This document shows positions 23,915-40,523 of a DNA stretch of 54,158 nucleotides, piece after piece (the stretch's first letter is position 1; the number at the start of each line of letters is the position of its first letter). Source of the DNA: Gemmataceae bacterium (GTDB taxonomy: Bacteria; Planctomycetota; Planctomycetia; Gemmatales; Gemmataceae); assembly GCA_009692005.1 (NCBI GenBank), contig SHZZ01000023.1, forward strand, positions 1 to 54,158, given 5' to 3'. The notes beneath the pieces are model-generated. The model made no database searches and was not told the DNA's origin. It saw only the letters and a list, made by a program, of their open reading frames with translations. Position numbers and translations under genes: made by a program.

Positions 23915-26656
23915 GTGCGTTTTTTGACCCTTTTTCCCCATGCGGGTGCCGTTTTGCCGGATAATTCTCTACCTCCGCTCCCTCCGGATGATCTTGTCGG
24001 CGATACCGAACCCTCCAATCAGTTGAACATTGCCGATGAGCTCAAGGACAGCTACCTGACTTACGCCATGAGCGTAATCATCAGCCGCGCCTTGCCCGAC
24101 GCACGCGACGGCTTGAAGCCCTCGCAGCGGCGCATTCTCGTGGCCATGCACGATCTCGGGCTCGGGCCGACTTCCGCCACCAGCAAGTGCGCCGGCATCG
24201 TCGGCGAAACCATGAAACGGTATCACCCGCACGGCGAAGCGGTGATCTATCCCACCCTGGTTCGCATGGCCCAGGATTGGAACATGCGCCACCGCCTGGT
24301 GCATTCACAAGGGAATTTTGGTTCGCAAGCCGGGCTGCCACCCGCCGCCATGCGCTATACCGAAGCGCGCATGACACATGTCGCCGCCGCCATGCTCGAC
24401 GATCTCGACCACGACACCGTCGATTTCATCGACAACTACGATGGCAAGTACCGCGAGCCCCTGGTTCTTCCCAGCCGGTTTCCCAATCTGATGGTGAACG
24501 GATCTGATGGCATCGCCGTAGGCATGGCCACCGACATCCCGCCGCACAACCTGGGTGAAGTCTGCGAAGCGGCCATCCGACTCATTGAGAACCCAGAGAT
24601 TTCCATCCAGGAAATCATGGAGGTTATCCCCGGCCCTGATTTTCCCACCGGAGGAATCATCTGCGGCCGACAGGGCATTCTCGATGGCTACACCACCGGC
24701 CGGGGGAAAGTCACCCTGCGCGCCCGAGCCGAAATCAACGAAGAAGGCTCCAGGCCCCAGATTATCATCAAAGAGGTTCCCTACCAGCAGACCAGAAACC
24801 GTCTGGCCGAGGCCATTGCCGACCTCGTTCGCAACGAAAAAATCCTGGGCGTGTCGGCTATACGCGATGAAAGCAGCATCCGCACGGGCGACCCCGTGCG
24901 CATCGTCATCGAGTTAAAGCGCGACGCCGACCCGCATTTGATCTTGAATCAGCTCTACCGGTTTTCCCCCTTGGAAAAGACCGCCAGCATTATCCTGCTG
25001 GCCCTGGTAGACGGCATGCCTCGGCTGCTTTCCATAAAAGCAATGCTCGAGGCTTTCTTGAGGCACCGGGTTCAAGTCATTCGCCGAAAGACCCTGTACC
25101 TTTTGCGCGAAGCGAAGAAGCGCTCGCACATCTTGGAAGGGCAATTGATTGCCATCTCTTCGCTGGACGAGATCATTCAGGTATGCCGCACTTCCCCCAG
25201 CCGGGCGGAAGCGAAGATTCGGCTGCAGGGGCATGGGGTTTCGGCGGCAGTGCTGGAGCGGGCCCTGGGAAGCGACAATTTCACCTCCTTGCAAAAAGAG
25301 CTGGGCGCCCTGGCGGAATACCGCATGACGGAAGCGCAGGCCGAGGCGGTGGTGCGCATGCAGTTAGGGCAGTTGGCGGCGCTAGAGCGAGACGAGATCC
25401 TGCGCGAATATGATCACCTGCGCGGGAAAATCAGCGAATATGACACACTGCTCGGCGACGAGAAAAATATCCTTGCCACCATACGCCGCGAATTGCAAGA
25501 GCTGAAAGACAAATTTGGCGACGACCGCAGAACCGAAATCACCGGCGAGGCCGCCGAGCTGGAGGACGAGGAATTCATCGTCAATGAAACCTGCGCTGTC
25601 ACACTCAGCCACCAGGGGTACATCAAGCGGCTGGGCGTGAATGTTTACAGGGCGCAGCACCGGGGCGGGCGCGGAGTCAGCGGCGGCGCCGCTCGCGAAG
25701 ACGACTTCATCGAACACTTTTTCATTGCCGACACCAAGGATTACCTCCTCTGCTTCACCAACCAGGGACGCCTTTACTGGCTCAAGGTTTACAAGATCCC
25801 CCAGCAGACTCGCGTGTCCCAAGGGCGCTCCATCGCCAATGTGCTATCCCTGCGGCCCGAGGAGAAAATCGCCAGCATCATTCCCGTCAAGACTTTCGCT
25901 GGCAACGAGGAAACCAGTTTGATCATGGCCACGCGCCAGGGGCTGGTTAAGAAAACCCCGCTCGACCTCTATTCCCGCCCACGCGCGGGGGGGATCATCG
26001 GCATCAATCTGGAAGAAGGCGATTCCCTGATCGAGGTCGCCCTGGTTAAAGGCGGGGATGAAATTGTCCTGGCCACGGCCAAGGGCATGTCGATCCGCTT
26101 TGGCCAGGACGATGCCCGCGACACCGGAAGAAACTCCAAGGGCGTGCGCGGCATCAAACTCTCACCCGACGACCGGGTGGTTGGCATGGTGATTGCCGAT
26201 CCGGAGGGCGCCCTGCTTACGGTTTGTGAAAAAGGGTATGGCAAACGCACTCCCTTCGGGCCCAATACCTCCGACGATGAGGAAATTCCGGAGGAAACCG
26301 AATCAGTCGCCGAACCCGCTGCTGAAGGCGAGGACAACCCCGATGCCGCGACCACGCCTTCCTCCATGCGCTTTCGCAAACAGCGGCGCGGCGGCAAAGG
26401 CGTGCGAGACATCCGCACAGGCGAAAGAAATGGTCAGGTCGTCGCCATCGCCAGCGTCCGCGACAATGACGATGTGCTTTTGATCACCGCCCAGGGGATG
26501 ATTAACCGCACCCATGTCAATGAAATCCGCCGCGTGGGAAGAAACTCCATGGGCGTGCGCGTCATGAACTTGCGCGACAACGACCAACTGGCCTCCCTGG
26601 CCAAGTTGGTGAGAGAAGCGAACGGCGACGACGACAGCCAGAACCCTCCCTCTTGA
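23915..26656 (+). CDS. gyrA: DNA gyrase subunit A
   Basis: The 913-residue product begins with a 35-residue leader, then [20 protein letters not shown], the 5Y-CAP domain with RYTE (catalytic Tyr148), coiled coil, and a beta-pinwheel C-terminal domain. The GyrA box at the usual place reads QHRGGRG; a consensus QRRGGKG lies near the C-terminus. The region matching E. coli 82-87 reads E108-A-V-I-Y-P113, so the quinolone-contact residues Ser83 and Asp87 are Ala109 and Pro113. The normally invariant GSIDGD before the active site is GSQAGL. An acidic insert (about residues 785-822) interrupts the pinwheel. The GTG start at 23915 is the best available; a later TTG (23954) is possible. It could alternatively be ParC, but the boxes favour GyrA. 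Confidence 0.92.
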
Positions 26657-26678
26657 TTTCCACGAAAGGCCCTATTGC

Positions 26679-27653
26679 ATGCGTGTCCTTATCACGGGAG
26701 GCTATGGTTTTTTTGGCTCCTGGATTGTCCGCGACTTGGCCGCGGCGAAGCACTCCACCACCATTCTCGATCTCCGTCAGGATAACGACCGACTGACTTG
26801 CATCCTACCTGCCGATTTGGTTGAAGCCGTCAAGTTTCAACAGGGGAATGTCACCGACAGCGATTCCATCATCCGGGCCATACGCGACAATGGCATTACC
26901 CATGTCATCCACCTGGCGGGGTTGCAAGTGCCCACTTGCAGGGCCAACCCGGTCCTTGGCGCTCAGGTGAATGTGCTGGGCACACTGGCGGTGTTCGAGG
27001 CCTATAAAGCTTGCCGCGACCAGGTGCAGCGGGTGGTTTACGCCAGCAGCGCCGCGGTTTTTGGCCCTCCAGGCGATTACCCCGCGGGAAAAATTCACGA
27101 TGAGGTCCGCCTTTCACCCAGCACCCACTACGGCTTCTACAAAATCTGCAACGAAGGCAACGCCAAGGTTTACTTTCTGGAGCACGGCCTGACTTCAATC
27201 GGTTTGCGCCCCTGGACCGTCTACGGCGTCGGCCGCGATGTCGGCATGACCAGTGAACCGACCAAGGCCATGAAGTGCATGGCCCTGGGGCGACCTTACC
27301 ACATTTCCTACGGCGGCAAGCAAGACCTGCAGTTCGTCGCCGATGTCGCTCGCATTTTCGTCCGCTCCTTGGAAGCCCCTTTTCAGGGCGCCAAGGCCTA
27401 CAACCTCCGTGGCGATATTGTCGACATGGCGCAACTGCATCAGGTTTTTTCCGAAGTGGAACCCCAGGCCGCCAGACTAATCACCTTCGGGGAAAAACAA
27501 ATCCCTATCGCCTTCGACCTCTCCGACGATTCCTTGCAAACGGAACTGGGGCCATTCCCCGGCACGCCGCTGGTGGAGGGCGTCCGCAGGACCATCAAGA
27601 AATTCAAAAAACTCGAGAGTGAAGGCCGTCTCGACAAGCGCGATTTGGATTAG
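26679..27653 (+). CDS. NAD-dependent epimerase/dehydratase
   Basis: A 324-residue extended short-chain dehydrogenase. The Rossmann motif is VLITGGYGFFGSW (GxxGxxG). HVIHLAGLQV and the active-site pair Ser (YASSAAVFG) with Y-G-F-Y-K (YxxxK) follow, then SIGLRPWTVYGVGRDVGMT. These features fit nucleotide-sugar epimerases such as the GalE-like group, acting in the cytoplasm. It starts 22 bases after gyrA in the same direction; 78 bases then separate it from the YeiH-type gene. The sugar substrate cannot be told. Confidence 0.9.
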   Translation: MRVLITGGYGFFGSWIVRDLAAAKHSTTILDLRQDNDRLTCILPADLVEAVKFQQGNVTDSDSIIRAIRDNGITHVIHLAGLQVPTCRANPVLGAQVNVLGTLAVFEAYKACRDQVQRVVYASSAAVFGPPGDYPAGKIHDEVRLSPSTHYGFYKICNEGNAKVYFLEHGLTSIGLRPWTVYGVGRDVGMTSEPTKAMKCMALGRPYHISYGGKQDLQFVADVARIFVRSLEAPFQGAKAYNLRGDIVDMAQLHQVFSEVEPQAARLITFGEKQIPIAFDLSDDSLQTELGPFPGTPLVEGVRRTIKKFKKLESEGRLDKRDLD

Positions 27654-27731
27654 CTTCCACGCTGACCGATCCTTTGCTGACGGCCCCGAAAGATCCTGGA
27701 ACCCCGTTAGTTTCCCCATTACACTTGTCCC

Positions 27732-29168
27732 ATGTTGGAAGCGCGAAAATTCAACGAAGACCGTTCCGCGGTCTGGCTGGCCTTTTTCCTCATCGGCCTG
27801 ACCTTGTTCCTCTTGGCAGGGCTGGGCGATTGCACCGGCTGGGTGCTGGGGGTCAAAGTCTGGACCGATCCGGGCAAGGCGCTGGCCCCCTTGGCCAAAA
27901 GCTACGCTCCCGTGCCCGGCTGGCTCAGCCTGGCCGCCACCATCGGCTTCCTCTGCCTGCTCTTGCTGTGGGAACGGTGGAAGAGTTTAGAAAAACCAGC
28001 CGAGTTTTTTCTGCCCTTGGTGATTGTTGTCACTTTGACGCTGGCCGCCTGGGTGATTGGCCACCATGGGTTTTTCGCGGCCACGCCCAATGAAAGGAAT
28101 AAGCTGGGCCTGAATTGGTCCCTCGGTTTGACTGGAGAAGCGGGTTATCTCCTGGCTTTGGGCCTGGGCCTGATCTTGGGAAACTTTTTCCCGAAGGCGG
28201 CGGGGTTTCTCGCTCCCGCGGCCCGAACCGAGTGGTTTATCAAGACCGGCATCGTCCTGGTGGGGGCGGCCATCGGCGTCAAGGCCATGGAACAATACCA
28301 GTTGGCTGGCGCCATTCTCCTGCGTGGCCTGGCGGCCATTGTAGAGGCTTACCTGATTTACTGGGCCTTGGTTTACCTGGTGGCAAGGAAGTGTTTTGGC
28401 TTCAGCCGGGAATGGGCCGCTCCCCTGGCTTCTGGAATTTCCATCTGCGGGGTGTCGGCGGCGATTGCCACAGGCGCGGCCATCCGCGCCCGCCCGGTCG
28501 TGCCCATCGTGGTTTCCTCACTCGTCGTCGTTTTCTCAGTGGTTGAATTGCTCGGCTTGCCCTTCCTGGCCAAACTCTTGATTCCCCAAGAGCCAATGGT
28601 GGCGGCGGCCTGGATGGGGCTGGCTGTAAAGACCGACGGGGCCGCCATCGCCAGCGGAGCCATTACCGAAGCGCTCTTCAATCCCGATGGCGTTTTCAAA
28701 AAAGACTGGATGTTGCTCACCACCACCACGGTGAAGATTTTCATCGACCTGTTTATTGGCGTTTGGTGCCTGGTGCTTTCGTGCGTATGGGTTTACTGGA
28801 TTGACAAGAAACCCGGCGACCGCGTGGGCTGGAAGGAAGTGGCGGACCGGTTTCCCCGTTTCGTGCTGGCATACTTCCTGGCTTTTGGCCTGTTCCTGCT
28901 GCTGACAAAGTTGCTGCCAGAGAAGTTGAGCGATTTGAAAATCGTCTCGGGGGAACTCGATGCCTGGAGGAAGATCTTTTTCGCACTGGCCTTTTTTAGC
29001 ATCGGCCTGTCGGCGGACTTCAGAAAGCTGTGGCAAGAAGGCCTGGGGAAACTGCTGGCGGTTTATGTGGTCTGCCTGTTTGGTTTTGTCATCTGGATCG
29101 GGTTGGGAATCTCGTGGCTGTTTTTCCACGGGATGCAACCGCCGCTTAATGTTGGAGGTGGCCCATGA
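27732..29168 (+). CDS. YeiH/UPF0324 family membrane protein (putative sulfate exporter)
   Basis: This 478-residue polytopic protein carries the family's central blocks: FIKTGIVLVGAAIGVKAM, SGISICGVSAAIATGAAI and a long VKIFIDLFIGVWCLVLSCV helix, with about ten or more membrane segments. YeiH proteins are usually near 350 residues; here about 110 extra N-terminal residues add two further hydrophobic segments and a loop. The 'sulfate exporter' label comes from family annotation, not direct evidence. It would suit an organism releasing sulfate with many sulfatases, but that link is inference. The stop overlaps the next small gene by four bases. Confidence 0.85.
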   Translation: MLEARKFNEDRSAVWLAFFLIGLTLFLLAGLGDCTGWVLGVKVWTDPGKALAPLAKSYAPVPGWLSLAATIGFLCLLLLWERWKSLEKPAEFFLPLVIVVTLTLAAWVIGHHGFFAATPNERNKLGLNWSLGLTGEAGYLLALGLGLILGNFFPKAAGFLAPAARTEWFIKTGIVLVGAAIGVKAMEQYQLAGAILLRGLAAIVEAYLIYWALVYLVARKCFGFSREWAAPLASGISICGVSAAIATGAAIRARPVVPIVVSSLVVVFSVVELLGLPFLAKLLIPQEPMVAAAWMGLAVKTDGAAIASGAITEALFNPDGVFKKDWMLLTTTTVKIFIDLFIGVWCLVLSCVWVYWIDKKPGDRVGWKEVADRFPRFVLAYFLAFGLFLLLTKLLPEKLSDLKIVSGELDAWRKIFFALAFFSIGLSADFRKLWQEGLGKLLAVYVVCLFGFVIWIGLGISWLFFHGMQPPLNVGGGP

Positions 29169-29305
29169 GCCAAGAAGAAAACAGTTCCAAGGGGGAAGAG
29201 ATGTCGGGGCCGGAACCCTTTCACCGGGCGGAATATTTCCTGGTGGGAGGGAGTTTGGGTTTGGGGGCGCTCTTCCTGGCGGGGATCTACTTTCTTCTTG
29301 GTTAA
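29165..29305 (+). CDS. 46-residue membrane protein coupled to the YeiH-type gene
   Basis: ATG 29165 overlaps the upstream stop as ATGA, the same coupling seen for other real gene pairs in this window. The frame gives 46 residues: a charged start (MSQEENSSKGEEMSGPEPFH), then one hydrophobic helix (YFLVGGSLGLGALFLAGIYF) and stop. With translation coupled to a transporter and a single helix, it looks like a small accessory or stabilising subunit. No family recognised. Confidence 0.68.
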   Translation: MSQEENSSKGEEMSGPEPFHRAEYFLVGGSLGLGALFLAGIYFLLG

Positions 29306-29751
29306 ACCGCCAGAGGGCCAAGGCCGGTTCATTCTTTGGGCATTTTGCCCATGAATTAGGCAATGTGTGATTCAATCGAGGGTTGGCTGATTGTCATTTT
29401 CCTTATAACTTCAAATCTTCACACTGGAACAAAGCATTTATAATTGTCATAAGTCGTTGTTGAATATTACCTTATGGATTATTAAGTAGTAAATACTGAT
29501 TCCACCACTTACTAACTCAGTGTGTATTCAACCCTGTTTAAACTTATGGCACATAGTTTGCGATTAAGGCATTTGTCCTTCGGGTTTTAATAAGGCAAGT
29601 GACTCTCGTCGGCGGCTCGCGGTTGGCCAAAAAGCCAATTACTCCTCTTCGCGAATCCCCCCCTTGTCCTGTTGAACGGTCCCCAAGAAGCGGGGAATCT
29701 TAAAGGTCTGGCGCCCAAGGCTTGGCTTATGCCCTCATGCAAGGGAGCCTC
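29306..29751. other. AT-rich control region upstream of the nitrate operon
   Basis: No gene lies here. From about 29370 to 29600 the sequence is markedly AT-rich against its GC-rich surroundings, as expected for a bendable enhancer/promoter region. It contains a sigma-54 promoter at 29547-29562, then a leader of about 180 bases with two small hairpins: TTGGC-CAAAAA-GCCAA (29623-29638) and TCCCC-AAGAAGC-GGGGA (29680-29696). I found no clear NtrC palindrome by eye. Confidence 0.6.
29547..29562 (+). promoter_or_regulatory. Sigma-54 (RpoN) promoter of the nitrate-assimilation operon
   Basis: TGGCAC-ATAGT-TTGCG matches the -24/-12 consensus (TGGCACG-N4-TTGCW), with exactly ten bases between the invariant GG (29548-29549) and GC (29560-29561). 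Transcription would begin near 29573, about 180 bases before the transporter ATG. Sigma-54 commonly serves nitrogen-assimilation genes. Confidence 0.75.
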
Positions 29752-31059
29752 ATGGAAATTCAGGGGAAAGCCGACCGGGTGGAACTGTTTCGCTTTGACA
29801 CCCCCTCCATGCGCGCCTTTCACATGACTTGGTTGGCGTTCTTCCTCTGCTTTTTTTCCTGGTTTGCCGCTGCCCCGCTCATGCCCATCATCCGCAAGGA
29901 ATTCTCCCTGACCGATGCGCAGGTGGGCAACCTCGTAATCGCCTCAGTGGCCATCACCATCCTGGCCCGGTTGCTGGTCGGTCGCCTGTGCGACCAGCAT
30001 GGCCCGCGCCTCACCTACACCTGGTTGCTGATCCTGGGGTCGATCCCGGTCATGTGCCTTGGTTTGGCCCAGGATTACTTCTCGTTTTTGGCTTTGCGTC
30101 TGGCGATCGGAGCCATCGGGGCGTCGTTTGTCATCACGCAGTTTCACACCACGCTGATGTTTTCGAAGAAGTGCGTGGGGATGGCGACAGCGACGACCGC
30201 GGGTTGGGGCAACCTAGGCGGCGGGGTCATGCAAATGGTCATGCCCCTTTTATTCACCGCCTTGATTTATTTTGGCCTGGCCGAGTCGCAAAGCTGGCGC
30301 CTGGCCATGGTGATCCCGGGCGCGTTCATGCTGGTGACGGGGATTTTATATTACCGGCTGACGCAAGACACGCCGGAAGGAAACTACTCCTCGTTGCGCG
30401 CCGCCGGGCGCCTGGCAAAGGGGCCGTTGAAGAAGGGTTTGTTTCGCGCGGCGATGGAAGACCGGCGGGTGTGGATTTTGGCCCTGGCCTACGGCGCCAG
30501 CTTTGGCCTGGAAATCACCATGCACAACCTGGCGGTTCTGTACTTCCTTGATGAATACCAGTTGGGCCTGAAAGAAGCCGGACTGATGGCGGGTTGTTTC
30601 GGCCTGATGGCGATGTTCGCTCGTCCGTTAGGCGGGTGGCTGAGCGACCGCTGCGGCCTGTCGGGCGGGCTTCGCGGGCGGGCCTTGCTCTTGGGCTTCG
30701 CCCTCTTCGCCGAGGGGCTCTTCCTCATGCTCTTTTCGCAGGTGTCGTCGCTGGGCCTGGCGGTGGTGATGCTGGCCTGTTTCGGGCTGTTCTCGGATAT
30801 CGCCAGCGGCGCCAACTTTGGCATCGTTCCCTTTATCAACACTCGGGCCGTGGGCTCGGTGGCGGGCATCGTCGGCGCGGGAGGCAACCTCGGCGCGGTC
30901 TTATCCGGGTTCCTCTTTAAAGGGTCGATGCCCTGGTCTTCAGCTATGCTGCTGCTTGGTTCCCTGGTGGCAGTTTGCTCGCTGGCGACTTTACTCATGC
31001 AGTTCGCCCCGGCGGTTGATGAAGGTTTAGTTCAAGCGCAACCAGCGGGAGTATCGTAA
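29752..31059 (+). CDS. Nitrate/nitrite MFS transporter (NarK/NasA family)
   Basis: A 435-residue major-facilitator protein with twelve predicted helices. The nitrate-porter signatures are present in both halves: GWGNLGGGVMQMVMP (helix 5) and VGAGGNLGAVLSGFLF (helix 11). The conserved Arg residues of helices 2 and 8 are represented by ARLLVGRLCDQHG and ARPLGGWLSDRCG. ATG 29752 is chosen because AAGGGAG lies five bases upstream; ATG 29737 is in frame but has no such site. It is the first gene of the operon and abuts the Fe-S/anchor gene with no gap, so it should import nitrate for the downstream reductases. Confidence 0.92.
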   Translation: MEIQGKADRVELFRFDTPSMRAFHMTWLAFFLCFFSWFAAAPLMPIIRKEFSLTDAQVGNLVIASVAITILARLLVGRLCDQHGPRLTYTWLLILGSIPVMCLGLAQDYFSFLALRLAIGAIGASFVITQFHTTLMFSKKCVGMATATTAGWGNLGGGVMQMVMPLLFTALIYFGLAESQSWRLAMVIPGAFMLVTGILYYRLTQDTPEGNYSSLRAAGRLAKGPLKKGLFRAAMEDRRVWILALAYGASFGLEITMHNLAVLYFLDEYQLGLKEAGLMAGCFGLMAMFARPLGGWLSDRCGLSGGLRGRALLLGFALFAEGLFLMLFSQVSSLGLAVVMLACFGLFSDIASGANFGIVPFINTRAVGSVAGIVGAGGNLGAVLSGFLFKGSMPWSSAMLLLGSLVAVCSLATLLMQFAPAVDEGLVQAQPAGVS

Positions 31060-32805
31060 ATGATGTCCCCCGGCAGCCGGTCTTTGGAATTGCCACTGGC
31101 AGGCAGGCAGCCAGCGGGGAATTCTCCAGCAACGCCCGGCCCGTTCGCCTGGCTGGTCGAGGACTTGCTGTGGGAACAGCGCGACCTGACAGCGGTGGAG
31201 CGCTTTGCCAGCCTGCATGACCAGGGGAAAGTTCCGTCGCAATCGCGCTACTATCAAGACTTGATCCCGCTGTCGAAACCTCAGGCGGGTCAGCAATACG
31301 CTTTTGAAGTCGATCTCGATTCCTGCACGGGCTGCAAGGCTTGCGTGACGGCCTGCCACAGCTTGAACGGGCTGGACGACCGGGAAACCTGGCGCGATGT
31401 CGGCCTGCTGGTGGGCGGTACGATGGAGCAACCGGTGGTGCAGCATGTCACCACTGCTTGCCATCACTGTTTGGAACCGGAATGCCTGCATGGGTGCCCA
31501 GTGAAGGCGTATGAAAAAGATCCTGTAACTGGGATCGTGAAGCATCTCGACGATCAGTGCATTGGCTGCCAGTACTGCGTGTTCAAATGCCCGTACGATG
31601 TGCCGAAGTACAACAAGCGCCTGGGAATCGTGAGGAAATGCGATATGTGCCATGGGCGTCTGGCGTCGGGGGAGGCGCCGGCGTGCGTGCAGGCGTGCCC
31701 GAACCGGGCGATCAAGATTCGCGTGGTGGACAAGAGGCAGGTGGTGGAGGATTGCGAGTCGAACCGTTTCGTGGCGGGGGCGCCGGAGCCGCAGTTCACC
31801 TTGCCCTCGACCAATTATGTGGGGAAGAAGGCGCTGCCGAGAAACCTATTGCCCGCCGATTTTTACCAGGTGAAGCCGCAACCGGCGCACGCGCCACTGG
31901 CGGTCATGCTGGTGTTGACGCAACTTTCCGTGGGGGCGCTGGCGACGGGAGAATTTCTTGGGTCTGCCGTCGGCCTGGCACCGGGCGGGCTGGCCTGGCT
32001 GATCAGTCATTGGCTGGCTTTCGCCGCCGCCTTGGCCGGCATCGCCACCAGCGTGCTGCACCTGGGACGGCCGCTGTACGCCTTCCGCGCTTTTTTGGGC
32101 CTGAGAAAATCGTGGATGAGTCGCGAGATCGTACTCTTCGCCGGCTTCCTGGTGTCTTTGGCCGTATTGAACGGCCTGCTGGTTCGCCTGCCAGCGGCGG
32201 AAGCAAACCCCTTCGTCCACTTCCTCATTATGGCCTCTATTTTCCTTGGTGCGGCGGGCCTCATCTGCGGCATCATGATTTATCACGACACACCACGGCC
32301 CTTTTGGGCCTTCCCCCGGAGCGGCTTCAAGTTCCTTCTCACCACGGCCATTCTCGGCCCGGCGGGGTTGCTACTGGCACAGGTCCTGGCCGCGCCCCTG
32401 ATGAGCGGCGCCGATTTTCCCACCTACCTGCAAGCCGATGGCCGAAAACTCCTGTGGCTGATCCTCGCTTTCACTTCGCTGAAAGTGGTGTACGAAGTTT
32501 CCTTCCTAAGACACCGCTGGGACCGCACCCACAACCCCTTGAGGAAATCTGCCCAGTTGATGACTGGCCCGCTGTTGAAAGTTTTTTCCGCCCGCGTGGT
32601 CTTCGGTCTTATGGGCGGCGTGGCCCTGCCTCTTTTGCTTTTGATCGATGGCTGGAACGCCCGCAGCCACGGGGCATTGCAGGCGTCGTCTCTGTTGTTC
32701 CCGTTTTCATTCTGTCTGTTGCTGGCGGGGGAGCTGCTAGAGCGGCTTTTGTTTTTCATGGCGGTGACGCCACCCAAAATGCCCGGGCTGGGAGGTGAGG
32801 CGTGA
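31060..32805 (+). CDS. DmsB-DmsC fusion: four-cluster ferredoxin subunit with membrane anchor
   Basis: This 581-residue protein joins two subunits that are usually separate. The N-terminal half has four [4Fe-4S] motifs: C89-x2-C92-x2-C95-x3-C99, [26 protein letters not shown], and KCDMC with a distal ACVQAC. The C-terminal half, from about residue 280, has around eight hydrophobic helices typical of the DmsC quinol-oxidising anchor. In DMSO reductase, DmsC takes electrons from menaquinol and DmsB passes them to the molybdoenzyme. Here the catalytic partner follows with a four-base overlap (GTGA). I infer that nitrate reduction is fed by the quinone pool at the cytoplasmic face. Confidence 0.88.
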
Positions 32806-35045
32806 ACAGCCAAATGGAAGAAGCCCCAGTGCAAGAATCGCGCCTGCTGTCGCTCATACAGGCCAAGAGCGGGCCGCTGACGCAGGAGTTGTCGCTGACC
32901 GAGGGGAATTTCGGTCTGGGCAAGGTGCCGACCAAGGCGCAGCCCGACTTCGCGACCAAGATGGTATGCGGCTTCTGCTCCACTGGCTGCAGCCTGACCG
33001 TGCACATGAAGGAGGGCCGCGCGGTGGGGCTAACGCCTTCCAGCGATTACCCGGTGAACCTGGGCATGGCCTGCCCCAAGGGGTGGGAAGCGCTGCGGGT
33101 GCTGGAAGCGCCGGACCGCGCCAGCCAGCCGTTGCTGCGCCGATCGAAAACCAGCCCGCTGCTGCCTTGTGATTTGGACACGGCCATGACCGTCATGACC
33201 AGCCGCTTCAAAGCCATTCTCCAAGAGCATGGGGACGAGGCCGTGGCCTTCCTCTCCACCGGGCAGATCACTAGTGAAGAGATGGCATTCCTGGGCGCGC
33301 TGACGAAGTTCGGCATGGGGCTGGTGCATGGAGACGGCAACACCCGCCAGTGCATGGCCACTTCCGTGGCGGCCTACAAGCAATCTTTCGGCTTCGACGC
33401 GCCCCCCTACACCTATGCCGACTTCGAGCTTTCCGATGTTTTGATCTTCGCCGGGTCGAACTTGGCCATCGCTCACCCCATTCTCTGGGAGCGTGTGCTG
33501 CGCAACCCGAACTCGCCGCGAACCATTGTCATTGATCCAAGGAAAACCGAAACCGCCATGGCCGCCACCGACCATGTGGCCCTGGCGCCCAAGTCGGATC
33601 TCCAACTCTTCTACTCCATCGCCCAGGTCCTGGTGCGCATGGGCTGGATCGATCGCGAGTTTATCGACAACCACACCGAGGGCTTCGACGACTTTGCTGC
33701 CTTCCTGGCCGACTACTCGCCCGAACAGACAGCCGGTTTCACAGGCATCAAGGCCGAAACCGTCATCGAACTGGCCAAAACCATTCACCAGGGGAAGCGC
33801 GTTTCCTTCTGGTGGACCATGGGGGTGAACCAGGGGCACGAAGCCACGCGAACAGCGCAGGCGATTATCAACCTGGCGCTGATGACGGGAAACATCGGCA
33901 AGCCCGGGACCGGCGCCAACTCCATCACCGGCCAGTGCAACGCCATGGGCTCGCGCCTTTTTTCCAACACCACCAACCTGCTCGGCGGGCACGATTTCCT
34001 CAACCCTGAACACCGCGCCAAGGTTGCCGCTGCGCTGGGTATCGAGGTTGAACGGGTCAAGGCCCGCAACAGCCTGGCCTACCACGAAATTCTCGATCGC
34101 ATTCGAGAAGGCAAGATCAAAGGCTTGTGGGTCATCGCCACCAACACAGCGCACTCCTGGATTGATCAGCGGGCCCTGCTGGAGACATTCAGCAAGCTTG
34201 ATTTCCTGGTGGTTCAGGACATGTATCACTCGACAGAGACGGCTCGCTTGGCCGACTTGGTGCTGCCGGCCGCCGCCTGGGGAGAAAAAGAGGGGACCTT
34301 CATCAATTCGGAAAGAAGGATCGGCCTGGTGAAGAAGGTGTCGCTGGCGCCGGGGCAGGCTCTCTCGGACTTCAACCTCTTCAAGCTGGTGGCGGAATAC
34401 TGGGGCTGCGGCCATCTGTTTCGCGCCTGGAAAACTCCCGAAGCCGTCTTTCAGATTCTCAAAGAGACCACGCGCAACCTGCCCTGCGACATCACCGGCA
34501 TTCGCGATTACCAGATGCTGGATCTGATGAATGGCATCCAGTGGCCCTACACGCAAAAGGACAGCCAGGCCGGGCCGCCCACGATTGAACGAAGGCTATT
34601 CGCCGACCGGCGCTTCTACCATGTCGATGGCCGCGCACGCATTCTCTTCGAGAAACCGCGGCGACCGGGTGAAGTTCCCGACAGCGAGTTCCCCTACTGG
34701 CTGCTCACCGGGCGGGGCACGGCGGCGCAATGGCACACGCAAACGCGCACCGGCAAGTCCGAGGTGCTGAACAAGCTTTCCCCACAGAGCCTTTATGTCG
34801 AGATCAACCCGGTCAACGCCCGGGAGCTGGGGATTCCCCCCGGGGCCAGGGTGCGAGTGCTGTCGCGCCGGGGCAGCGTCATCGCCCGCGCCCAGCTTTC
34901 GCACGCCATCGCCCCGGGTCAGATCTTTCTCCCAATGCACTACGCCGAAACCAACCGCCTGACTTTTTCCGAGTTCGATCCTTATTCCAAACAGCCGTCG
35001 TACAAGGCCTGCGCCGTTCGGGTTGAACCCCTGGCAGCCAGTTAG
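32802..35045 (+). CDS. Molybdopterin nitrate reductase, catalytic subunit (assimilatory type)
   Basis: A 747-residue molybdo-bis-MGD enzyme. The N-terminal [4Fe-4S] ligands are C56-x2-C59-x3-C63-x27-C91. MGD-binding blocks follow ([60 protein letters not shown]). There is no Tat signal, so the enzyme should stay in the cytoplasm, as assimilatory NasA/NarB-type reductases do. The GTG start at 32802 overlaps the preceding stop. Its neighbours (nitrate transporter, nitrite reductase) support nitrate as substrate; formate dehydrogenase-like relatives are the main alternative. Confidence 0.9.
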
Positions 35046-35057
35046 GAAGGAGAAACC

Positions 35058-36884
35058 ATGACGATGAAGGAATTCAGCGAGGAACAGAAGCAGTACTTGC
35101 AAGGATTCGCGGCGGGCGCCGGGCTGGCAAGGCAGGCCCAATCGCTGGCCTTCTTGCCGGTCCTCAACCCGCAACCTCCGGGACAAGGCCAAACCCTCAC
35201 CGTTGGTGGAGGCCGCGATTTGCTGGTGCAAGCGCAAGACCGCTTCCTATCCCAGGGGAAAAAGTTGACTCCCGAGGAAAAAGCCAAGCGCGACAAGGAT
35301 CCTCTGCAACTGTGGGATGAGCATGCTCAGCGGGCGGAAAAAAACGAGTTTCCCAAGGGCACAGATGTCTTTTTGACAAAATTCGAGGGGTTGTTTTTCG
35401 TTTCGCCCGCGCAGAACTCCTACATGTGCCGCTTGCGATTGCCGGCCGGGGTGATTAACGCGCATCAGTTGAGCAGCGTAGCTGACCTGGCGGAAAGTCA
35501 CGGCGGCGGGTACGCCCATGTCACCACCCGCGCCAACTTGCAGATCCGCGAGATCCCCGCCAGCCAGGGGATGGAAGTCCTCACCGGGCTGCGCGACCTG
35601 GGAATCATCAACCGGGGCGCCGGCGCCGACAACATCCGCAACATCACCTGCAGCCCCACCGCCGGCATCGACCCAGGGGAATGGATCGACACCCGCCCGC
35701 TGGCCAAGCGCATCCACCACTACATTCTCAACCACCCGGAGATGTACTGCCTGCCGAGGAAGTTTAACATCGCCATTGATGGCGGGGGCGAAGTCAGCAC
35801 CGTCGCCGACACCAACGACATCGGCTTTTTCGCCGTGCGCGTCAACGAGACCGATGCCACGCCCGAGTTTCCTCACGGCGTGTACTTCCGCATGGAACTG
35901 GGAGGCATCACCGGGCACAAGGATTTCTCCCGCGACACCGGGGTCCTGTTGCAAGAAGACCAGTGCCTGGCCGCCGCCGCAGCCGTCTTGCGCGTCTTCA
36001 TCGACTTTGGCGACCGCACCGACCGCAAGAAAGCCAGATTGAAGTACCTGCTCGACGAGTGGGGCTTCGAGAAATACCTGGCCGAGGGGCAAAAGCACCT
36101 GCTCTTCCCCTGGCCCAAGTTCCCTGAGGAGAAGTGTCAGCGGCCCAGGCAGGCCAACCCGCTGGGGCATGTCGATTTCCATCCGCAAAAACAGCCGGGG
36201 CTTGCCTATGTGGGCGTCGTTTTGCCCGTGGGAAAACTCACCTGCGAGCAAATGCGCCAACTGGCCCGCATCGCGCAAACGCATGGGACCGGCGACATTC
36301 GCCTGACCGTTTGGCAGAACCTCCTTCTCACCGGCATTCCCCTCGGCAAGGTAAACATCGTGAAGGAGGAGATTGAGAAAACGGGGCTGCACTGGTCAGC
36401 GACGCGGATTCGCGCCGGCCTGGTGGCCTGCACCGGCAGCCAGGGATGCAAGTTCGCCGCCTCCGACACCAAGGGACATGCCGAACTCATTGCCAATCAT
36501 CTGGAAGCGGCGCTCGAGATGGACCAGCCGGTGAACATTCACCTGACCGGCTGCCATCACTCCTGCGCGCAGCACTACATTGGCGACATCGGTCTGCTGG
36601 GGACCAAGGTGGCCGAGGGCGACGATCAGGTCGAGGGGTATCACATTTACATCGGGGGCGGGCACGGGGAGAACCGCGCCATTGGTAAAGAACTGCTGCA
36701 CGATGTCACCGTCCGTGAAACCCCGGCGGCTCTGGAGGCGCTCTTGCGCGTCTACCTGGAACAGCGCCTTTCCCCTGAACAAAAATTCCATCAGTTCGTG
36801 GCTTCCCTGCCGATTGAAGAATTGCGCCAACGGGTGCAAAAACACCGGGCCGAACTGGCGCACTCTCTAGAAGTGGCGCCATGA
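35058..36884 (+). CDS. nirA: Siroheme nitrite reductase (NirA type)
   Basis: A 608-residue nitrite/sulfite reductase hemoprotein that would reduce nitrite to ammonium in six electrons. The two half-domains are visible: THVTTRANLQIRE-type block (here AHVTTRANLQIREI) and GTGDIRLTVWQNLLLTGIP. The siroheme/[4Fe-4S] ligands are C458-x5-C464 and C499-x3-C503 (ACTGSQGCKFA; LTGCHHSCAQH). An N-terminal extension begins FSEEQKQYLQGFAAGAGL, a motif shared with the next gene. AAGGAG precedes the ATG. Sulfite reductase is the alternative, but the operon favours nitrite. It overlaps the reductase gene by four bases. Confidence 0.92.
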   Translation: MTMKEFSEEQKQYLQGFAAGAGLARQAQSLAFLPVLNPQPPGQGQTLTVGGGRDLLVQAQDRFLSQGKKLTPEEKAKRDKDPLQLWDEHAQRAEKNEFPKGTDVFLTKFEGLFFVSPAQNSYMCRLRLPAGVINAHQLSSVADLAESHGGGYAHVTTRANLQIREIPASQGMEVLTGLRDLGIINRGAGADNIRNITCSPTAGIDPGEWIDTRPLAKRIHHYILNHPEMYCLPRKFNIAIDGGGEVSTVADTNDIGFFAVRVNETDATPEFPHGVYFRMELGGITGHKDFSRDTGVLLQEDQCLAAAAAVLRVFIDFGDRTDRKKARLKYLLDEWGFEKYLAEGQKHLLFPWPKFPEEKCQRPRQANPLGHVDFHPQKQPGLAYVGVVLPVGKLTCEQMRQLARIAQTHGTGDIRLTVWQNLLLTGIPLGKVNIVKEEIEKTGLHWSATRIRAGLVACTGSQGCKFAASDTKGHAELIANHLEAALEMDQPVNIHLTGCHHSCAQHYIGDIGLLGTKVAEGDDQVEGYHIYIGGGHGENRAIGKELLHDVTVRETPAALEALLRVYLEQRLSPEQKFHQFVASLPIEELRQRVQKHRAELAHSLEVAP

Positions 36885-38455
36885 TGGTTCCCTTGATTCC
36901 TGAAAATGCTCCCTTTAGCCTGGAACAGCGTTCGTGGTTGAATGGCTTCTTTGCGGGTCTATTCAGCGCGGCCAACGGCCAGGCAGCGCCTGCCGCCTTG
37001 TCGCCCGAGGAAGAGGACCACCCCTGGCACGACTCCGCCCTTTCTCTCGACGAGCGAATTAAACTTGCCGAGGGAAAATCACTGAAGAACCGCATGATGG
37101 CTGCCATGGCGCAACTGGATTGCGGCACCTGCGGCTATTTGTGCCAGACTTATTCCGAAGCTTTGGCCAGCGGCAAAGAAAAAGACCATACTCTGTGCCA
37201 GCCAGGGGGAAAGCCAACTGCATCCAAGTTGAAAGAGCTTTGCCTTCTGCGTACGGAAGAAATCAGCCCCACTCCCGCAGCCGCGATCCACGGCGCCAAT
37301 GGACACATGGCCAACGGCCAAGTCAACGGTTTCAACCGAGACAACCCATTCCCCGCGCCGCTACTTCTCAACCGTCCGCTCAACTTGGCCGGCTCGGCCA
37401 AGGACACCAGGCTCATCAGCGTCGATATCTCTGGCAGCGGCATGCAATACCGGGCCGGCGACAGCCTCGGCATCTACCCGCGAAATTGCCATGAACTTGT
37501 CACCTGCCTGCTCAAGGAACTTGGGTTTCACGGGGGTGAACCGGTCCGTGCGCCCGATGGCAGGGCTGTGCCGCTGCGCGAGGCCCTCACCCGGTTCCTC
37601 GATATCGAATCCTTTGGCGATGAGCTTTTGGAACTGTTGATACGCTCGGCCACGGTCACCTCGCAGATCGAGGACTTGCAACGGCTGCTTAAAGAAGAAA
37701 CCGTGGCTGGCGTGCCAGAGAACCCGGGCGTGGTGGAACTGGTGCGGCATTTTTCCTCCGCACGCCCTTCCCCCGACGACCTTGCCTTGGCCCTCAAGCG
37801 CCTTAAGCCCAGGCTTTATTCCATCGCCTCTTCACCCGTGGTCTTCCCCGCCGAGGTCCACCTCACCGTGGGCATGGTCCGCTACGAACACAACGGCCGC
37901 TTGCGAAAAGGGGTCGCTTCCACTTACCTGGGCGACCGCGTCCGCGGGCACGAGCCGGTCGATGTCTATATTCAGAAGTCGCATGGCTTTGCTCTGCCGC
38001 GCCAACACGAGGCCCCCATGATCATGGTCGGCCCGGGCACCGGCATCGCTCCTTTCCGCGCCTTTCTTCAGGAGAGGCATCACTTGGGGGCCAAGGGAAA
38101 GAACTGGCTGTTCTTCGGCGACCAGCGGCGGGATTTCGATTTTCTTTACCAGCAAGAGCTGCAGGCTTTGCTTGAGGCCGGCACGCTGCATCGGCTCGAC
38201 ACTGCTTTTTCCCGCGATGGCCAGAATAAGGTTTATGTTCAGGACCGCATGCGCGAAAACGCCAAAGAACTCTTTGCCTGGATGGAGGAGGGCGGACATT
38301 TTTATGTCTGTGGCGACGCCAGTCGCATGGCCAAAGATGTCGATGCCGCGCTAAGGGAGATCATTTCCAATCAAGGGGGAAAAGACACCGAGGCCACGGC
38401 CAAATATATGGCAGAGCTAAGCCGCTCGGGCCGGTATCAAAGGGATGTTTATTGA
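36881..38455 (+). CDS. CysJ-like FAD/NAD(P)H reductase with an Fe-S motif in place of flavodoxin
   Basis: The 524-residue product starts with the motif FSLEQRSWLNGFFAGLF, then has a cysteine motif C81-x2-C84-x3-C88-x17-C106 ending CQPGG, like the small FeS domain (RnfB/CO-dehydrogenase type). A CysJ-type module follows: FAD-binding RLYSIASSP, the connecting domain, and NAD(P)-binding GPGTGIAPFRAFLQER, FFGDQRRDFDFLY and YVCGDASRMAKDVDAAL, ending YQRDVY. The FMN-binding flavodoxin domain of CysJ is absent. I infer electron flow NAD(P)H to FAD to [4Fe-4S] to the nitrite reductase encoded just upstream. ATGA overlap fixes the start. Confidence 0.88.
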   Translation: MMVPLIPENAPFSLEQRSWLNGFFAGLFSAANGQAAPAALSPEEEDHPWHDSALSLDERIKLAEGKSLKNRMMAAMAQLDCGTCGYLCQTYSEALASGKEKDHTLCQPGGKPTASKLKELCLLRTEEISPTPAAAIHGANGHMANGQVNGFNRDNPFPAPLLLNRPLNLAGSAKDTRLISVDISGSGMQYRAGDSLGIYPRNCHELVTCLLKELGFHGGEPVRAPDGRAVPLREALTRFLDIESFGDELLELLIRSATVTSQIEDLQRLLKEETVAGVPENPGVVELVRHFSSARPSPDDLALALKRLKPRLYSIASSPVVFPAEVHLTVGMVRYEHNGRLRKGVASTYLGDRVRGHEPVDVYIQKSHGFALPRQHEAPMIMVGPGTGIAPFRAFLQERHHLGAKGKNWLFFGDQRRDFDFLYQQELQALLEAGTLHRLDTAFSRDGQNKVYVQDRMRENAKELFAWMEEGGHFYVCGDASRMAKDVDAALREIISNQGGKDTEATAKYMAELSRSGRYQRDVY

Positions 38456-38504
38456 AGTTGAAGAATAACCCCGGTCATTCGTCCGGGTCGGAAAGTAAAC
38501 CTGG

Positions 38505-39611
38505 TTACGCCGCCGATTCTTTGCTAATCGTAAGCGCCTGAAACATTTTCCCCTGCAATGCGGGGATGTCCCAGGGGCCGGTTTCTGGCCCCTGCTCGCC
38601 CTGCCATTTGTGCCCGCAAATGCTGTCCAGCACACGCGAGGCGACTTCAACGGCGTGAGCGCCCGCTTCCCCGTTCACTCGCGGGGCCTCCCCCGTGGTG
38701 ATGGCTTTTACGAAATCCTCCAGTTCCCAGGTGAGCTGGTCGCCCGGGCGCTTGGAGCAATCAAGTTTTTTCGACTCTACCTGTGTGGAGAAGAGGTTGG
38801 ATTTGAAAGAACTCACCAGTTGCGGGTCGAGCCGGGCGGGAGCGCTCTCAGCCAAGTCGCGCAAGATCTGCCCCGGTTGCATCAGGGTGGCCTGCTTGGC
38901 AATGAAATCGATGCCCGCGTAACCTTCCGCGGCCCACAGGTCCATGCGCCGACGAGGCTCGGGGTGAACCCGACTGGCCGCCAGGTCGCAGATCGTGCCG
39001 TTGGCGAACACCAGACGCGCCTGAGCCATGTCTTCGTGACCGCCCAGAACCGCCACGCCAAGAGCTTGCGTTGAAACCAGCTTCGATTTCGTTAGCGAAC
39101 AAACCAGGTCGATGTCGTGAATCATGAGGTCGAGGACCACCCCAGTATCGGACGAGCGACCGCTGAATACGCCAAGGCGTTCACAGCGGATGTAGCGGGG
39201 TTTCATGGGAAGCGCGGCGACAGCTTCAAAGGCCGGATTAAAGCGTTCAATGTGCCCGACTTGCAAGGTGGCCTTGCGCTGGCGGGAAAGTTTTGCCAGT
39301 TCCCAGGCTTTTTCCGGGTCCATGCATATCGGCTTCTCCACCAGGACGGATAGGCCGCGGTTGAGGAAGTCGAGGGCTATTTCATGGTGCAGGCGGGTGG
39401 GTGCGGCAATGACGACAGCGTCCACTTTGTCCATTAGTTCCAGGTGGCTGGCGTAAGATTTGGTATTGCAGCGAAGGGCCACGGCTTCAGCTTGGGCTTT
39501 GAAAGGGTCGGCAATTCCCGCCAGTTCCACACCCGGCAGGGTAGATAATATCCGGGCATGTTCCTTGCCCAGGTGACCGACTCCCACAACGCCAATTTTC
39601 ACTCCAGCCAT
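38505..39611 (-). CDS. Gfo/Idh/MocA oxidoreductase linked to lipid A genes
   Basis: This 368-residue cytoplasmic dehydrogenase has no signal peptide. It shows the Rossmann start KIGVVGVGHLGKEHARIL, the EKPICMD catalytic-lysine motif, and DLMIHDIDLV in the substrate domain. It starts 24 bases after lpxC and runs in the same direction, so it belongs to the skp-lpxC operon rather than to the nitrate genes it meets end to end. GnnA, which oxidises UDP-GlcNAc at C3 for amide-linked lipid A, is a Gfo/Idh/MocA enzyme; this gene is a candidate for that role, but no GnnB aminotransferase is visible here. Confidence 0.85.
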   Translation of the reverse strand: MAGVKIGVVGVGHLGKEHARILSTLPGVELAGIADPFKAQAEAVALRCNTKSYASHLELMDKVDAVVIAAPTRLHHEIALDFLNRGLSVLVEKPICMDPEKAWELAKLSRQRKATLQVGHIERFNPAFEAVAALPMKPRYIRCERLGVFSGRSSDTGVVLDLMIHDIDLVCSLTKSKLVSTQALGVAVLGGHEDMAQARLVFANGTICDLAASRVHPEPRRRMDLWAAEGYAGIDFIAKQATLMQPGQILRDLAESAPARLDPQLVSSFKSNLFSTQVESKKLDCSKRPGDQLTWELEDFVKAITTGEAPRVNGEAGAHAVEVASRVLDSICGHKWQGEQGPETGPWDIPALQGKMFQALTISKESAA

Positions 39612-39635
39612 GCCATCCCTTTCCCTGATCTAGGA

Positions 39636-40523
39636 TCAAGCAGCCAAAAGGTAACGAGCGGCGGCGGCGGATCCCAGGCGGGCCGCCAAGGTGCGGGCCA
39701 TTTCCACATTCAACGGGTGACCGGAGCGGAAGGCCACGACATGGCCGCGCAAATCGGCGCCCAGGAGAGCCAGGTCGCCCACCATATCAAGGATTTTGTG
39801 CCGCGCTGGTTCGTTGGCAAAACGCAATTCATTGTCAATCGGCCCGTGTTTGCCAAAGACCAGCAAGTCTTGGGTTGTGGTGCGGCAACCGAGGCCCAGA
39901 AGGCGCAATTGGCTGGCTTCCTCCTCAAGAAGGAAAGTCCTGCAGTTGGCCACTTCGCGAATGAAATTGCCGAGTTCGAATTTCAGCGTGTGCACCTGGC
40001 GGTGGATGGGCGAGTGGTTGCCGTAATCCAGAAAGTAAGTTAGCTTGAGCCCCTCGCCTTCGCAAGGGTGCAGGGCCAGGGTGGCGCCGTTGGACTCGAG
40101 GATAACAGGGCTTTCAACACTGTAGATAGTTCTTCGCGAGCTTTGCGTTTCCGATCCGGCTGATTTCAGCGCTTCAATGAAACCCAGGCACGAACCATCC
40201 AGGCCAGGGGGTTCCACCGCGTTCAATTCCACCAGGCAGTTGTCGACGCGCAAGGCGGCCAAAGCGGCCAGAACATGTTCCACCAGCGTGACCTGAAACG
40301 GTTTTTCCCCAAGGGTGGTGCGGCGTTGCGTGCCGGTGACATTCCCCACATGGGCGCGGATCGGGACGCTTTGAGCAATATCGGTGCGCAGGAACTGAAT
40401 GCCAGTGCCTGGGGCGGCGGGGCAAAAGCGCAAGTGGACGAAGGCGCCGGTTATGAATCCGATTCCTTCAACTTCCGCGGGCTTGGCTATGGTCCTTTCG
40501 AAGCGCGTTGAAACGGGAATCAC
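39636..40523 (-). CDS. lpxC: UDP-3-O-acyl-N-acetylglucosamine deacetylase
   Basis: LpxC catalyses the committed step of lipid A synthesis, using zinc. The 295-residue product has the zinc/catalytic motifs VEHVLAALAALRVDN (E-H), HKILDMVGDLALLG (His and Asp ligands) and SGHPLN near the C-terminus. GTG 40523 is chosen: AAGGAT lies about six bases upstream and the protein then begins VIPVSTRFERTIAKPAEVEG, a normal LpxC start and length. The frame is open 37 codons further with unrelated basic residues. It lies 70 bases after the skp-like gene. Confidence 0.93.
   Translation of the reverse strand: MIPVSTRFERTIAKPAEVEGIGFITGAFVHLRFCPAAPGTGIQFLRTDIAQSVPIRAHVGNVTGTQRRTTLGEKPFQVTLVEHVLAALAALRVDNCLVELNAVEPPGLDGSCLGFIEALKSAGSETQSSRRTIYSVESPVILESNGATLALHPCEGEGLKLTYFLDYGNHSPIHRQVHTLKFELGNFIREVANCRTFLLEEEASQLRLLGLGCRTTTQDLLVFGKHGPIDNELRFANEPARHKILDMVGDLALLGADLRGHVVAFRSGHPLNVEMARTLAARLGSAAAARYLLAA

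Follow-up and report, generated by a model that had tools for sequence, protein, structure and literature searches.

The question raised by this locus is how nitrate assimilation is switched on in a planctomycete. In the window, i.e., the whole stretch of 54,158 nucleotides analysed here from a Gemmataceae bacterium (contig SHZZ01000023.1), the initial annotation proposed that a sigma-54 promoter within an AT-rich island drives a complete nitrate-assimilation operon. Such a specific promoter would be of note because nitrogen control has hardly been documented in this phylum. A literature search on sigma-54 and nitrate assimilation in planctomycetes returned nothing specific; a sigma-54 regulon prediction for Pirellula sp. 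strain 1, reportedly made by Studholme and Dixon in 2004, lay outside its coverage and could hold a prior prediction. Our analysis indicates that the element at 29547-29562 is very probably a sigma-54 promoter from which narK and the four closely packed genes that follow are transcribed. Judged from sequence comparison, the whole nitrate-to-ammonium gene set appears to be switched on from this one promoter.

The probable sigma-54 element and nitrate operon

Direct reading of the forward strand at 29547-29562 gave TGGCAC-ATAGT-TTGCG, with TGGCAC at 29547-29552 and TTGCG at 29558-29562. The GG (29548-29549) and the GC (29560-29561) are separated by ten bases, which confirmed the exact GG-N10-GC spacing that had been claimed, and the sequence matches the TGGCAC/TTGC consensus. 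This site is the only exact copy of TGGCACN5TTGC in the window and has the top weighted sigma-54-like score on either strand. It lies 205 bases ahead of the start codon of narK, where the window's most AT-rich stretch ends on its 3' side. The features of the locus are listed in Table 1.

Table 1. Features of the nitrate-assimilation locus, in window coordinates
Feature	Position	Strand	Remarks
AT-rich island, presumed activator-binding region	29370..29546	.	32% GC; no known enhancer motif found
TTCAACCCTGTTT, 13-base word, candidate shared regulatory element (speculative)	29527..29539	+	shared with the region upstream of amt
-24/-12 element of the predicted sigma-54 promoter	29547..29562	+	sequence, window scoring, comparison with relatives
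Predicted untranslated leader, no significant fold	29573..29751	+	start (~29573) placed by the usual distance from the -12 element
narK, NarK-family nitrate/nitrite MFS transporter	29752..31059	+	start codon backed by homologues beginning MEIQ
Fusion of a 4Fe-4S protein with a DmsC-type membrane anchor, likely partner of nitrate reductase in electron transfer	31060..32805	+	
NasA/NasC-like molybdopterin nitrate reductase, catalytic subunit	32802..35045	+	
NirA-family siroheme nitrite reductase	35058..36884	+	score above family cut-off
CysJ-like NADPH flavoprotein, likely electron donor to NirA	36881..38455	+	above PRK06214 cut-off

The five genes had been described as packed with gaps of 0-12 bases or four-base overlaps, and this was found at all four junctions: the last base of narK (31059) directly precedes the ATG at 31060 (gap of 0), the second and third genes overlap by 4 bases (32802-32805), 12 bases separate the third from the fourth (35045 to 35058), and the last two again overlap by 4 bases (36881-36884). 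Transporter, nitrate reductase and nitrite reductase are encoded contiguously, the arrangement by which a nas operon is recognised. The NasA-like subunit matched several molybdoenzyme models and passed no equivalog cut-off, so that its substrate is deduced from the company of its neighbouring genes. With this content, a route from nitrate uptake through to ammonium is plausible. The description of a complete nitrate-assimilation operon holds for packing and gene families, and is plausible as to the substrate. We infer that transcription starts from the 29547-29562 site and that all five genes are co-transcribed from it.

The 4Fe-4S/DmsC fusion was also found in a Phycisphaeraceae contig (L057), in L059-L062, L070 and L137, and at most narK loci of the relatives. 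Conserved in this way across Planctomycetota, the membrane-anchored fusion suggests a quinol-linked, rather than soluble, electron supply to the nitrate reductase. The gene preceding the island (27732-29168) encodes a YeiH/Cons_hypoth698-type transporter that is probably unrelated to nitrate.

Sigma-54 machinery and candidate activators in the genome

A sigma-54 promoter calls for an rpoN gene, the presence of which was to be confirmed; the genome carrying the window (G000) has one, together with six strong sigma-54 (AAA+) activator genes. Its single amt gene is followed by a P-II gene, and one of the 11 exact genomic copies of the motif precedes the amt domain by 253 bases, within DNA of 34% GC; this placement is consistent with a nitrogen regulon. 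When 30 regions upstream of amt were scored in relatives, 8 reached at least 0.88, against 3 and 1 in controls. The amt gene of the closest relative found (G019) had no sigma-54-like site upstream, which indicates that the control of amt is less conserved than that of narK. Separately, an exact sigma-54-like site was observed directly before clpB (G000:C90:3247-3261, L201; 34% GC).

Neither in the window nor in G019 does an activator gene adjoin the operon. Contigs of the Rhodopirellula type have an NtrC-type activator gene directly after the nitrate operon, and they contained no site scoring at least 0.9. Three activator types (L203, L206 and L207) were common to G000, G019 and G024, the three genomes of the family with this narK. 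The L207 type, which has a REC domain and an adjoining HAMP-HisKA kinase, was the most conserved (80% to G019 and 73% to G024). The attempt to single out one activator by presence and absence stopped at these three types, as the L207 type was also found in G014 and G022, both of which are without narK. Its link to narK is, therefore, circumstantial. The leading activator candidate would be the REC-AAA-Fis (AtoC/NtrC-like) regulator G000:C93:12095-13525, one of the three shared activators, with its HAMP-HisKA kinase.

The AT-rich island and possible NtrC control

The roughly 180 bases upstream of 29547 had been called unusually AT-rich and interpreted as an enhancer with bending. The composition was borne out: GC content is 32.2% over 29370-29546, whereas the window as a whole has 57.8%, and its lowest-GC stretch of 177 bases begins at 29390. 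AT-rich surroundings were likewise seen at the amt and clpB sites of the genome. At the narK sites of the relatives the trend is weak (mean of 5 points of GC), so that bending or an enhancer function of the island would be conjectural. The enhancer interpretation was not supported, as neither an NtrC-type (TGCACC-type) palindrome in 29300-29580, such as the initial annotation had suggested looking for, nor a NifA-type palindrome in the island was found. When dyads were sought de novo in the DNA preceding the sites, no enhancer emerged for promoters of the window type; the search yielded only a TTCGG-N4-CCGAA palindrome that belongs to another group of relatives.

The 4.19 Mb genome contains exactly two copies of the word TTCAACCCTGTTT: one at 29527-29539, the other preceding the sigma-54-like site of amt by 165 bases. 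A shared word of 14 bases arose in 3 of 3000 simulated pairs. We regard it as a lead only, because it was found by looking and because it lies near -40 at narK, which is unusual for an enhancer.

The best-surviving alternative is that a classical NtrB/NtrC pair binds enhancers in the island. The P-II and amt genes would suit such control, and the candidate activator belongs to the NtrC/AtoC group and has a kinase alongside. However, the three of the six activators that were scanned with the NCBIfam NtrC model scored 381-436 bits, below its cut-off of 558.6 (383 against 559 for the candidate), the HAMP-HisKA kinase gave no PAS hit, and the island is without an NtrC-type palindrome. Classical NtrC control of the window operon is therefore disfavoured, and we consider it unlikely.

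Conservation of the element upstream of narK

Alternatively, the element may be a chance match in AT-rich intergenic DNA, and the operon may be driven by a housekeeping-type (sigma-70) promoter located there. AT-rich DNA is favourable to sigma-70 promoters, the housekeeping promoters of planctomycetes may deviate from the E. coli consensus, and the exact motif showed no genome-wide enrichment (11 copies against 12 for a backward control pattern, i.e., chance level). The significance of the motif derives from its position and its conservation.

Conservation of the GG/GC pair in relatives had been named as a check. The NarK protein was searched against 397 genomes of the class, and upstream DNA was taken from 87 strong matches. 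The named relatives agree with a planctomycete identity of the organism. In the 500 bp preceding narK, the coding strand carried the exact motif TGGCACN5TTGC in 21 of the 87 relatives. These represent 13 of 46 genera, and because relatives within one genus are not independent, it is fairer to count by genus. At the same 87 regions, the minus-strand, reversed and complement controls each gave 0, and Markov shuffles gave a mean of 0.02 exact motifs with a maximum of 1. A weighted score of at least 0.88 was reached in 34 of the 87 regions, as opposed to 4 on the minus strand, 1 reversed and 1 distal. About half of the 87 regions had no strong site.

In G019, whose narK is 62% identical, the five genes are in the same order as in the window and a perfect TGGCACGGTTTTTGCA lies 67 bases before the narK match. 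The Phycisphaeraceae contig L057 has a perfect site directly before an FeS-NasA-NirA-CysJ operon, the only strong site in its 21.8 kb. Retention of the motif at narK in 13 genera with none in the controls, as well as the perfect site in the nearest relative, makes a chance match very unlikely, and no sigma-70 consensus promoter was found in 26600-39700. In one relative (L226), a pair of strong sigma-54-like sites (7696 minus, 7970 plus) stands back to back between divergent narK and FeS-NasA genes.

The original reading stands in part: the presence of rpoN, the six activators and the conservation in relatives support a sigma-54 promoter driving narK and the operon, whereas the enhancer part, with neither an NtrC- nor a NifA-type palindrome found, is not supported.

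The leader and the proposed mechanism

The nas operons of Klebsiella and Azotobacter combine sigma-54 and leader antitermination as two layers of control. That sigma-54 initiates here while the decisive nitrate control is leader antitermination of the NasR or NasT type, for which the leader of about 180 nt would leave room, is very unlikely, as the leader folds no better than its shuffles and has no Rfam match above the gathering score. A search for ANTAR domains gave 0 matches in three genomes, with controls likewise at 0, so that this result carries no weight against antitermination.

Under the preferred reading of a sigma-54 promoter, RpoN-RNA polymerase would bind 29547-29562 as a closed complex. 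Opening would be the work of an enhancer-binding protein of the AAA+ class, which probably acts from the upstream AT-rich stretch. The signal for opening may be nitrogen limitation, nitrate or both. The amt and P-II genes of the genome would probably be controlled by the same sigma-54 mechanism.

A phased palindrome in other relatives

Of the 87 regions, 18 contained a perfect copy of TTCGG-N4-CCGAA no more than 400 bases from narK (L054, L141, L142, L146, L147, L152, L154, L155, L157, L167, L171, L175, L179, L182, L184, L186, L187 and L189), and every match to a control palindrome had at least two mismatches. All but one of the 18 (17) have a GG-N10-GC element whose first base is exactly 38/39 or 49/50 bases away from the palindrome start, against a mean of 0.15 per offset. 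The two offsets differ by one helical turn, which indicates a fixed helical phase. This phasing adds weight to a sigma-54 interpretation for the group as a whole.

The longer form of the palindrome is CTTCGG-N4-CCGAAG, and its gene context was examined in L214-L217, L227 and L229. At the palindrome loci examined, the divergent neighbours include genes for a REC-LuxR response regulator and, in the two that were scanned, a PilJ-domain histidine kinase. From this adjacency, we infer that the LuxR-type regulator binds CTTCGG-N4-CCGAAG. The window has neither the TTCGG-N4-CCGAA palindrome nor LuxR/PilJ-kinase neighbours. Regulators of the LuxR type are not known to carry the AAA+ domain by which sigma-54 complexes are opened, which makes the phased palindrome beside a -24/-12-like element puzzling. 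This arrangement is stranger than that of the window itself.

As a tentative and somewhat doubtful generalisation, planctomycete nitrate assimilation might be controlled through sigma-54 without classical NtrC. Loci of the window type might use another regulator of the AtoC/NtrC group. Elsewhere, a PilJ-domain (nitrate-sensor-like) kinase might act with a LuxR-type, non-AAA+ regulator bound to CTTCGG-N4-CCGAAG at a fixed helical phase from the -24/-12-like element, which would be an unusual co-regulator of the sigma-54 polymerase. The questions raised are which activator takes the place of NtrC and, for part of the lineage, what phase-locks the palindrome next to a LuxR-type regulator gene to -24/-12-like elements.

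Comparison with known systems

The available part of a 2025 sigma-54 survey (PMC12316311) assigns the enrichment of nitrogen uptake to Pseudomonadota, describes a limited presence of NtrB/NtrC in Planctomycetota, and reports chaperone/protease enrichment in the sigma-54 regulon of Planctomycetia; an Azotobacter NasT reference is among its citations. Our results agree with the Planctomycetia regulon predicted there in that sigma-54 promoters occur in the same phylum, and the clpB site is in line with the enrichment of COG0542. They differ in that nitrate assimilation is not among the Planctomycetia functions given in that part of the survey.

The window operon resembles the sigma-54/NtrC-controlled nas operons of Klebsiella, Azotobacter and Paracoccus in having a predicted sigma-54 promoter before a transporter, a nitrate reductase and a nitrite reductase, and P-II and amt are likewise present in the genome. 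In contrast to the proteobacterial systems, there is no NtrC equivalog among the three activators scanned and no NtrC palindrome, and leader antitermination is without support here. The partner of NasA is an FeS-DmsC fusion, and NirA is the nitrite reductase, accompanied by a CysJ-like flavoprotein. The scheme of sigma-54 control over nitrate assimilation, for which Proteobacteria offer the best documentation, would thus extend beyond that group and is apparently also at work in this planctomycete lineage, with a different activator.
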